From: an uncultured Sulfolobales archaeon
GTDB taxonomy: Archaea > Thermoproteota > Thermoprotei_A > Sulfolobales > NBVN01
Direction: 5' to 3'
Length of the DNA stretch: 64,000 nucleotides
Assembly: GCA_938017505.1 (NCBI GenBank)
Contig: CALIKV010000006.1
Coordinates: 114,927-178,926 of the forward strand
Shown here: piece after piece, positions 46,314 through 55,375 of the stretch
Position numbering within the stretch: the first letter of the stretch is position 1
How the letters are laid out: each line of letters starts with the position of its first letter
Made by a program: the position numbers and the translations under genes
The notes under the pieces: generated by a model
The model's database searches: none
Told to the model about the DNA's origin: nothing
Seen by the model: the letters and a program-made list of their open reading frames with translations, nothing else

Positions 46314-46401
46314 GCCGCCGTAGCTCAGCCGGGTAGAGCGCCGGACTCATACGGTCGTCTGAGACATCCGGAGATCCGGGGTTCGAATCCCCGCGGCGGC
46401 A
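46314..46401 (+). tRNA. tRNA-Met (CAT) with 14-nt intron (46352-46365)
   Basis: GCCGCCG/CGGCGGC acceptor; CCGGA-CTCATA-[cggtcgtctgagac]-A-TCCGG; BHB central helix CTCA/TGAG with TAC and ACA bulges; CCA follows. Confidence 0.92.
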
Positions 46402-46408
46402 CCAACGT

Positions 46409-46496
46409 AGCCGGGTCGTCTAGCGGCCAAGGATGCGGGGCTCTGGTCCTATGGGGGAGTGCCCCCGTGACCGGGGTTCGAATCCCCGCCCGGCTA
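46409..46496 (+). tRNA. tRNA-Gln (CTG) with 15-nt intron (46447-46461)
   Basis: AGCCGGG/CCCGGCT acceptor; CGGGG-CTCTGG-[tcctatgggggagtg]-C-CCCCG; BHB helix CTCT/GGAG; CCA 46497-46499. Confidence 0.9.
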
Positions 46497-46599
46497 CCAC
46501 TCGATCGCACTTCAACATCGGTGCTAAAGGAGCTCAGATCTGGTGTGGACTTATTTATTGCCGTCAACGAATACTGGGCGTAAACAGTTTAAACAGATC

Positions 46600-53522: not shown

Positions 53523-54218
53523 ATGAGTAATACTGTCAACGTTAAATGGTTTGGTCACGCCGCGTTCAGGATTGGTATGTTCGGTAAGGTGTTCCTGATA
53601 GATCCATGGATAACCAACCCGACATCGCCTGAGACCAAGGTGAACCACATCTGCGGCGACTACGTTATCGTGACTCACGATCACGGGGATCATATAGGTA
53701 ATGCCCTAGAGATCCTGAAGAACTGCCCTGACTCTAAAGCAGTGGCAATATACGAGCTAGCGTCTTTCATGGCTGGGGAGTTAGGCAGTGAGGAAAGAGC
53801 TGTGGGAGGCAATATCGGGGGTCCCATCACCCTCGAGGGGGGTTTCGAGGTGGTGCTGACTCCAGCGCTTCACTCCAGCGGGAGGGGATCCCCAGTAGGT
53901 GTCATCTTAGGCAAGCAAGGTGTTAACGTCTACCACGCGGGGGACACCGGCTTGATGTATGATATGAAGCTAATCGGCGAGCTCTACAAACCGCTAGTCG
54001 CTCTCCTTCCGATAGGAGGACACTTTACCATGGGGCCTAAGGAAGCCGCTTACGCAACCCTTCTAATAAACCCCAAGTATGTGATACCAATGCATTACGG
54101 TACCTTCCCCTTAATAAAGGGAGCCCCAGCTGAATTCAGGAGACACCTACTGGAATTCGGCTCTACCTCAGAGCTCATAGTTCTTAAGCCAGGGGAGGAA
54201 ACCAAACTCACCGTATGA
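53523..54218 (+). CDS. UPF0173-type metal-dependent hydrolase (MBL fold)
   Basis: VTHDHGDHIGNA; VYHAGDTGLM; ALLPIGGHFTMGPKEAA; VIPMHYGTFPLI. Confidence 0.9.
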   Translation: MSNTVNVKWFGHAAFRIGMFGKVFLIDPWITNPTSPETKVNHICGDYVIVTHDHGDHIGNALEILKNCPDSKAVAIYELASFMAGELGSEERAVGGNIGGPITLEGGFEVVLTPALHSSGRGSPVGVILGKQGVNVYHAGDTGLMYDMKLIGELYKPLVALLPIGGHFTMGPKEAAYATLLINPKYVIPMHYGTFPLIKGAPAEFRRHLLEFGSTSELIVLKPGEETKLTV

Positions 54219-54249
54219 TTAAACTAAAAGGTTGGGAGTTTTTCCCCTC

Positions 54250-54590
54250 CTACAGGGTTTAGGTCTTACATCGACTTACGGTTGAGGATTAGGAGCTGTT
54301 TTAGCGTGTAGGTGTTTGTTCTGCAGCCGCGGCGAGTCGCTTGGCGGGGCCCAACTAAGACGGGGAACGAACCTACGCATAAATCGTAATGGAGGAGCAG
54401 CCATAAACCCTTTACGAAAGACCTGGTAATTACTTGCGGCTTACCAGATTTAACGGTCCCCTCAGACCTGCGTGGGTAAATCACCCATCATACCTTTCGA
54501 GCCTCATCACCGGTGGTGACAAGTCACAGCTCCTTAGCGGATCACCGTGTCATGCGTTCCGGCTTCTCTTCAGGCCCTAAAGACCTGTAG
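54250..54590. ncRNA. Candidate structured ncRNA of about 340 nt, identity and strand unresolved
   Basis: Long-range closing stem CTACAGG-g-TTTAGG (54250-54263) / CCTAAA-ga-CCTGTAG (54576-54590); internal hairpin CTGGTAA (54423-54429)/TTACCAG (54441-54447); no credible ORF; minus-strand TATA-like 'tttaaaaag' near 54640. Confidence 0.5.
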
Positions 54591-54736
54591 CACGTCCCCA
54601 CGACGCTTGCGGGTTCGAGCAGACTGCCGTAAGTATTCTTTTTAAATAAGGTTAATAAGCAGCGAAGTCGACGTCTGAAGGGCGACGACAGTGTAATATT
54701 AAAACCTAAACTCAGTATCCGTATATAGTTACGTAT

Positions 54737-55375
54737 GTGAGGGATGACTGGTTGGGCAGGTTTGTCGTAGGGATAACTGGGAGTAGTGGTATTGTTTACG
54801 GCTTGAGACTCGTTGAGGTCTTAAGCAGTTCATGCCATGAAGTTCACGTGGTCGTGAGTGAGGAGGCTAAGGCGGTTTCGGAGAGTGAGTGCCTCAGCTG
54901 GGACAAGTTGCTGGGGTTACTCAGGAAATTCACTAACTACGTCTACGGTGAGTATGACTTCACGTCGCCAATAGCTTCTTCATCCTACGTGATCGACGGG
55001 GTTGTTGTCATGCCCTGCAGTCTTAAAACCCTTGGAGAGATAGCTAACTCAATCCAGTCAACGCTTGTTAGTAGGGCGGTGCTGAATAGCCTCAGGTTAA
55101 GGCGACCAGCGATCCTAGTTATCCGTGAGACACCGCTATCAACTCTCGACATAGCGAACATGCTTAAGGTATCCCTAAGTGGTGGTGTAGTGATGCCGGC
55201 GTCGCCAGCGTTCTACACGGAGCCTCAAACCCTTGAGGAACTGATCGACTTCATGGTTGGCAAGGTTCTAGACGTGCTTGGTATAGAAAACAATCTATAC
55301 AGGAGGTGGGAGGGTATGAGGGTTACTCAAGGAAGGAACCTTTGCGGCCGCCTCTACGGGCGAGGAGACTCTTAA
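54737..55375 (+). CDS. ubiX: UbiX-family flavin prenyltransferase
   Basis: VVGITGSSGIVYGLRLVEVL; VVMPCSLKTLGEIANSIQSTLVSRA; LVIRETPLSTLDIANMLKVSLSGGVVMPASPAFY. Confidence 0.92.
   Translation: MRDDWLGRFVVGITGSSGIVYGLRLVEVLSSSCHEVHVVVSEEAKAVSESECLSWDKLLGLLRKFTNYVYGEYDFTSPIASSSYVIDGVVVMPCSLKTLGEIANSIQSTLVSRAVLNSLRLRRPAILVIRETPLSTLDIANMLKVSLSGGVVMPASPAFYTEPQTLEELIDFMVGKVLDVLGIENNLYRRWEGMRVTQGRNLCGRLYGRGDS

Follow-up and report, generated by a model that had tools for sequence, protein, structure and literature searches.

The intergenic gap between an MBL-fold gene and a UbiX-like gene in the 64,000-nucleotide stretch of archaeal DNA analyzed here (the window) very probably encodes, at 54458-54515 of the minus strand, an archaeal C/D box sRNA predicted to guide methylation of two tRNAs, tRNA-Glu(UUC) at U34 and tRNA-Leu at G47. 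An earlier note on this DNA had mentioned an embedded C/D pattern here; it was the right lead, the pattern being real and on the minus strand, although the description "partial" does not hold since all four boxes are present. The sRNA is best read as an additional member of a well-known class, the archaeal C/D box sRNAs, that is absent from Rfam, and it appears unusual in that both of its guides aim at tRNAs.

Anatomy and conservation of the sRNA

The gap spans 518 bp (54219-54736) and is ORF-poor, containing only a 72-aa antisense ORF that is not convincing, which bears out the previous description of the interval as free of ORFs. A whole-gap blastn-type search against 60 related genomes gave matches in 27 of them, and all matches beyond the genome of the window fall within the same ~30-57 nt (window 54458-54514) at 77%-92% identity. 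The remaining ~450 nt appear to be unconserved spacer in which any pairing is incidental. Relative to ubiX, the sRNA strand runs in the same direction in one genome (G002, locus L006) and antisense in other genomes of the same genus (L005, L008 and L009).

Table 1. Features of the gap and its flanks; strands refer to the window, and guide positions are counted from the respective D box.
Feature	Position	Strand	Basis or remark
MBL-fold gene	53523-54218	+	left flank of gap
C/D box sRNA including short terminal stem	54458-54515	-	conservation, model matches, stem covariation
Box D, CUGA	54462-54465	-	sequence; CTGA in 58/58 copies
D guide ACCCACGCAGG, positions 2-12 from box D	54467-54477	-	pairs with tRNA-Leu
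Box C', GUGAUU	54479-54484	-	sequence; RUGA core in alignment A2
Box D', AUGA	54488-54491	-	sequence; NUGA in 47/58 copies
D' guide GCUCGAAAGG, positions 2-11 from box D'	54493-54502	-	pairs with tRNA-Glu(UUC)
Box C, GUGAUGA	54504-54510	-	sequence; conserved in alignment A2 and 58 copies
Terminal stem	54512-54513 with 54460-54461, 54515 with 54458; mismatch 54514/54459	-	short
Possible TATA-like promoter element TTATTTAAAAAG	54637-54650	-	sequence only
UbiX-like gene	54737-55375	+	right flank of gap

The element carries the boxes C (RUGAUGA) and D (CUGA) together with internal D' and C' boxes, and shares with archaeal C/D sRNAs a length of ~50-60 nt, a 12-nt C-D' interval, the register of the terminal stem and guides that end at the D boxes. 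Its variation was described from 58 distinct copies, gathered by means of a search pattern in which most of the guides were fixed and the D box, flanks and spacer left open. Box D reads CTGA in every copy, though the pattern allowed other letters there, and the C-D' interval is 12 nt throughout, with a D'-C' spacer of variable length. The D' guide GCUCGAAAGG occurs in 52 copies and the D guide CYCRCGCAGG in all 58. Alignment A2, an unbiased set of 20 copies, shows ten conserved nt in both guides, at positions 2-11 from the D boxes with position 1 free, in agreement with the published 10-nt recognition limit (Yang 2016).

The terminal stem lies beside the C and D boxes at the kink-turn register. 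Across the 58 copies, pairing at this register amounts to 154/290, compared with 109.5 ± 7.4 after shuffling (z = 6.0), and registers shifted by one either way give z = 1.9 and 0.1. The z value is inflated by related copies, a bias that the neighboring registers carry as well, and only the expected register covaries. The signal is one of covariation at the RNA level, on the minus strand.

Copies of the sRNA are widespread. Of 229 genomes of the class, 195 gave matches to the sequence model R1; among 397 sampled from the phylum, 132 did, the latter figure being an upper estimate because weak or partial matches there include other C/D sRNAs. Named records in an exact-pattern scan include Metallosphaera, Staphylothermus, Thermogladius, Ignisphaera, Fervidicoccus, Zestosphaera and Acidilobaceae. 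None of the Rfam C/D families (sR5, sR20, snoPyro_CD and others) reached its gathering threshold in the window (best 17.1 of 44 bits), in the copies of 16 relatives, or in 20 distant copies (best 31.1 of 40).

In at least eight copies from Ignisphaera-type and other genomes (L015, L113, L142, L152, L171, L193, L200 and L205), a tRNA gene directly precedes the sRNA in the same orientation; where its anticodon arm can be read (GTTAA), it is tRNA-Asn. Such a tRNA gene and the downstream sRNA are likely to form a dicistron, and a tRNA gene followed by a C/D sRNA is an arrangement known in archaea (PMC7994747). Where it is present, the tRNA gene just upstream lends indirect support to transcription of the sRNA strand. 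The window copy has no close TATA-like box ahead of box C; the minus-strand TATA-like TTTAAAAA near 54640, which had been pointed out before and is indeed present in the sequence, could drive a longer sRNA precursor.

Predicted targets of the two guides

The guides were compared with 46 tRNA genes recovered from the genome assembly, a few of which come from a contaminating bacterial contig and have no effect on the guide matches. The D' guide (guide 1) pairs with the anticodon loop CCUUUCGAGC of tRNA-Glu(UUC), placing the box+5 base A54496 opposite the wobble base U34. The loops of tRNA-Glu(CUC) and tRNA-Asp(GUC) are the same except at position 34, and the pairing is therefore perfect with U34 alone. 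The D guide (guide 2) matches all five tRNA-Leu genes perfectly at CCUGCGUGGGU, where the box+5 base C54470 faces G47, which directly precedes C48 and lies at the foot of the variable arm. Both predicted duplexes are ~10 nt long, involve stable RNAs and contain the box+5 base. Only 6 of 2000 shuffled D' guides and 3 of 2000 shuffled D guides match any tRNA equally well.

These target sequences are conserved in 27 genomes, the tRNA-Leu site being near-invariant, and the changes seen in guide 2 all leave it able to pair with tRNA-Leu, placing either purine opposite U and either pyrimidine opposite G. Since the targets barely vary in the class, guide-target covariation there consists mostly of wobble-compatible change rather than full compensation. 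Both tRNA-Glu genes (L065 and L067) have a probable intron at the canonical position, with intron and 3' exon each starting with AGC, so that the D' guide can pair with the unspliced as well as the spliced anticodon loop. Two further adjoining tRNA genes with extra sequence in their anticodon loops, probably introns, are found at 46314-46499 of the window; ARAGORN gave them no assignment.

The sole rRNA operon in the assembly of the window, on contig C28 (L023, L024, L025 and L030), is bacterial, with a bacterial 338F site, spacer tRNA-Ile(GAU) and tRNA-Ala(UGC), and no archaeal primer sites. The metagenome-assembled genome is thus contaminated and lacks an archaeal rRNA operon. Possible rRNA targets were accordingly sought in relatives rather than in the organism's own rRNA, and no full-length guide match was found in the complete archaeal 16S and 23S of G045 or in the partial 23S of two Ignisphaera-type genomes.

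Across the class guide 1 hardly changes, whereas distant members have altered versions of it. In G298 it reads GGCUCGAGAGG and matches tRNA-Glu(CUC) perfectly, its box+5 base on C34 (equaled by 4 of 5000 shuffles), and guide 2 has slid by about three nt along tRNA-Leu. In G045 guide 1 is GGCUUUCAAGG and matches tRNA-Ser(UGA) with the box+5 base on U34 (10 of 5000 shuffles); the tRNA-Glu(UUC) of this genome reads CCUUUCAAGC, with which a guide of the window type would mispair. Members of family f41 carry GGCTTAAAAGG or TGCTTTAAAGG as guide 1 (L237 in G331, L238 in G326). The G331 guide itself suggests retargeting to tRNA-Lys(UUU), which the recovered tRNAs do not support. There are about even chances, in our view, that these copies represent a two-tRNA guide reaching deep into the phylum, in which the tRNA-Leu guide stayed nearly fixed and the other switched among wobble targets (Glu UUC, Glu CUC and Ser UGA), thereby coupling wobble methylation with that of tRNA-Leu.

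Alternative readings of the locus

The earlier note had proposed that the gap holds a new structured RNA of 300-350 nt, closed by a long stem and resembling RNase P or SRP RNA. Its stem exists exactly where it was placed (54250-54256 with 54584-54590 and 54258-54263 with 54576-54581; overall 54250-54263/54576-54590), as do inner hairpins such as CTGGTAA/TTACCAG, and a composite stem of at least 13 bp arises in only 4 of 150 dinucleotide shuffles, which makes it mildly unusual. Yet the whole 351-nt span folds no more stably than shuffled sequence (z = -0.97 on the plus and -0.92 on the minus strand), and conservation is confined to the ~55 nt of the sRNA (54458-54514 in the relatives). The whole-gap search of the 60 related genomes revealed no counterpart of either arm; in relatives the upstream gene ends ~13-160 nt from the conserved element, and there is accordingly no room for the 5' arm. 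The likeness to RNase P RNA (RF00373) and SRP RNA (RF01857) was only one of supposed size and end-pairing. Neither model, nor any other Rfam model at threshold, matches the gap, and the genes of this genome sit elsewhere, that for RNase P RNA on contig C27 (188.8 bits) and that for SRP RNA on contig C10 (167.3 bits), so both identities were rejected. When 54150-54800 was scanned permissively against Rfam, there were five C/D-box matches, each below threshold; one is a 15-nt fragment within the upstream gene, and the other four share a single 55-nt stretch of the minus strand. On folding, limits of conservation and the position of upstream genes in relatives, the large RNA is rejected as highly improbable. 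Still more remote is the idea that the conserved element is no RNA gene and regulates the neighboring ubiX-like gene in cis: within the same family most members do have it beside ubiX, but it is antisense to ubiX in the window and its orientation to that gene varies. Of 49 distinct copies, most have no UbiX motif within 0.9 kb and at least eight follow a tRNA gene instead, and the conserved letters are those of C/D boxes and guides.

An sRNA gene being accepted, it could still be that one guide alone has a real tRNA target and that the other acts on a different RNA or on none. This would follow the pattern reported for tRNA-directed sRNAs, which use one guide while the other is without target, as reviewed for Pyrobaculum (PMC7994747, after Lui 2018). 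Guide 1 of G331 has no clear target among the tRNAs recovered, and in the G045 genome the tRNA match of guide 2 is equaled by 224 of 5000 shuffles, both of which fit such a division. Conservation of both guides over 10 nt across the class argues the other way, as do the shuffling results for both guides against the tRNAs of the window's genome and the fact that the box+5 bases fall at positions 34 and 47, both of them plausible; for 47 there is an earlier prediction elsewhere. We therefore consider a single tRNA target unlikely, and favor an sRNA directed at both tRNA-Glu(UUC) and tRNA-Leu.

Proposed function and relation to known sRNAs

For the two-tRNA sRNA, the following mode of action is proposed from its sequence. 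The transcript would fold into two kink-turns, C/D and C'/D', each bound by L7Ae and joined by Nop5 and fibrillarin. For each D box, the base five positions upstream would mark the nucleotide opposite it, whose 2'-OH fibrillarin would then methylate. Guided by the D' guide, 2'-O-methylation would fall on the wobble base U34 of tRNA-Glu(UUC); guided by the D guide, it would fall on G47 of all tRNA-Leu isoacceptors. Such modifications may serve to make the wobble base, and likewise the core of tRNA-Leu, stiffer at high temperature.

Compared with archaeal C/D sRNAs in general, the guides of this sRNA match two different tRNAs and none of the rRNAs compared, and they are far more conserved than usual for a class whose guides are described as highly variable (PMC4644070). 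The sRNAs of Pyrococcus for position 34 of tRNA-Leu, tRNA-Met and tRNA-Trp and the Pyrobaculum families (Lui 2018) likewise place one guide at wobble position 34; here the tRNA is tRNA-Glu(UUC) and the second guide also matches a tRNA, whereas theirs aim at a single one (PMC7994747). G47 of tRNA-Leu(UAA) in P. furiosus is a predicted C/D target (snoRNAdb), at which methylation was undetected in the tRNAs analyzed (PMC7668247). The sRNA predicted there, compared by description only, addresses the same nucleotide in one isoacceptor, and the one described here is predicted to do so in all five. Rfam sR5 (RF01304), sR20 (RF01140) and snoPyro_CD (RF00095) have C/D boxes and length in common with it, but their guides differ and their matches stay below the gathering score. 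A literature search, with supplementary sRNA lists outside its reach, returned no report of this sRNA.

Targeting of two tRNAs, with one guide switching between wobble positions, would depart from the one-guide generalization (PMC7994747). According to a recent survey, several methylated sites in archaeal tRNAs have no assigned guide or enzyme (PMC7668247). The present sRNA would provide two precise site assignments across many genomes, some of them of cultured species. Ribose methylation of the wobble base can tune decoding, and the copies of this sRNA may offer a series of examples from nature in which a guide was redirected to another tRNA, still at position 34.
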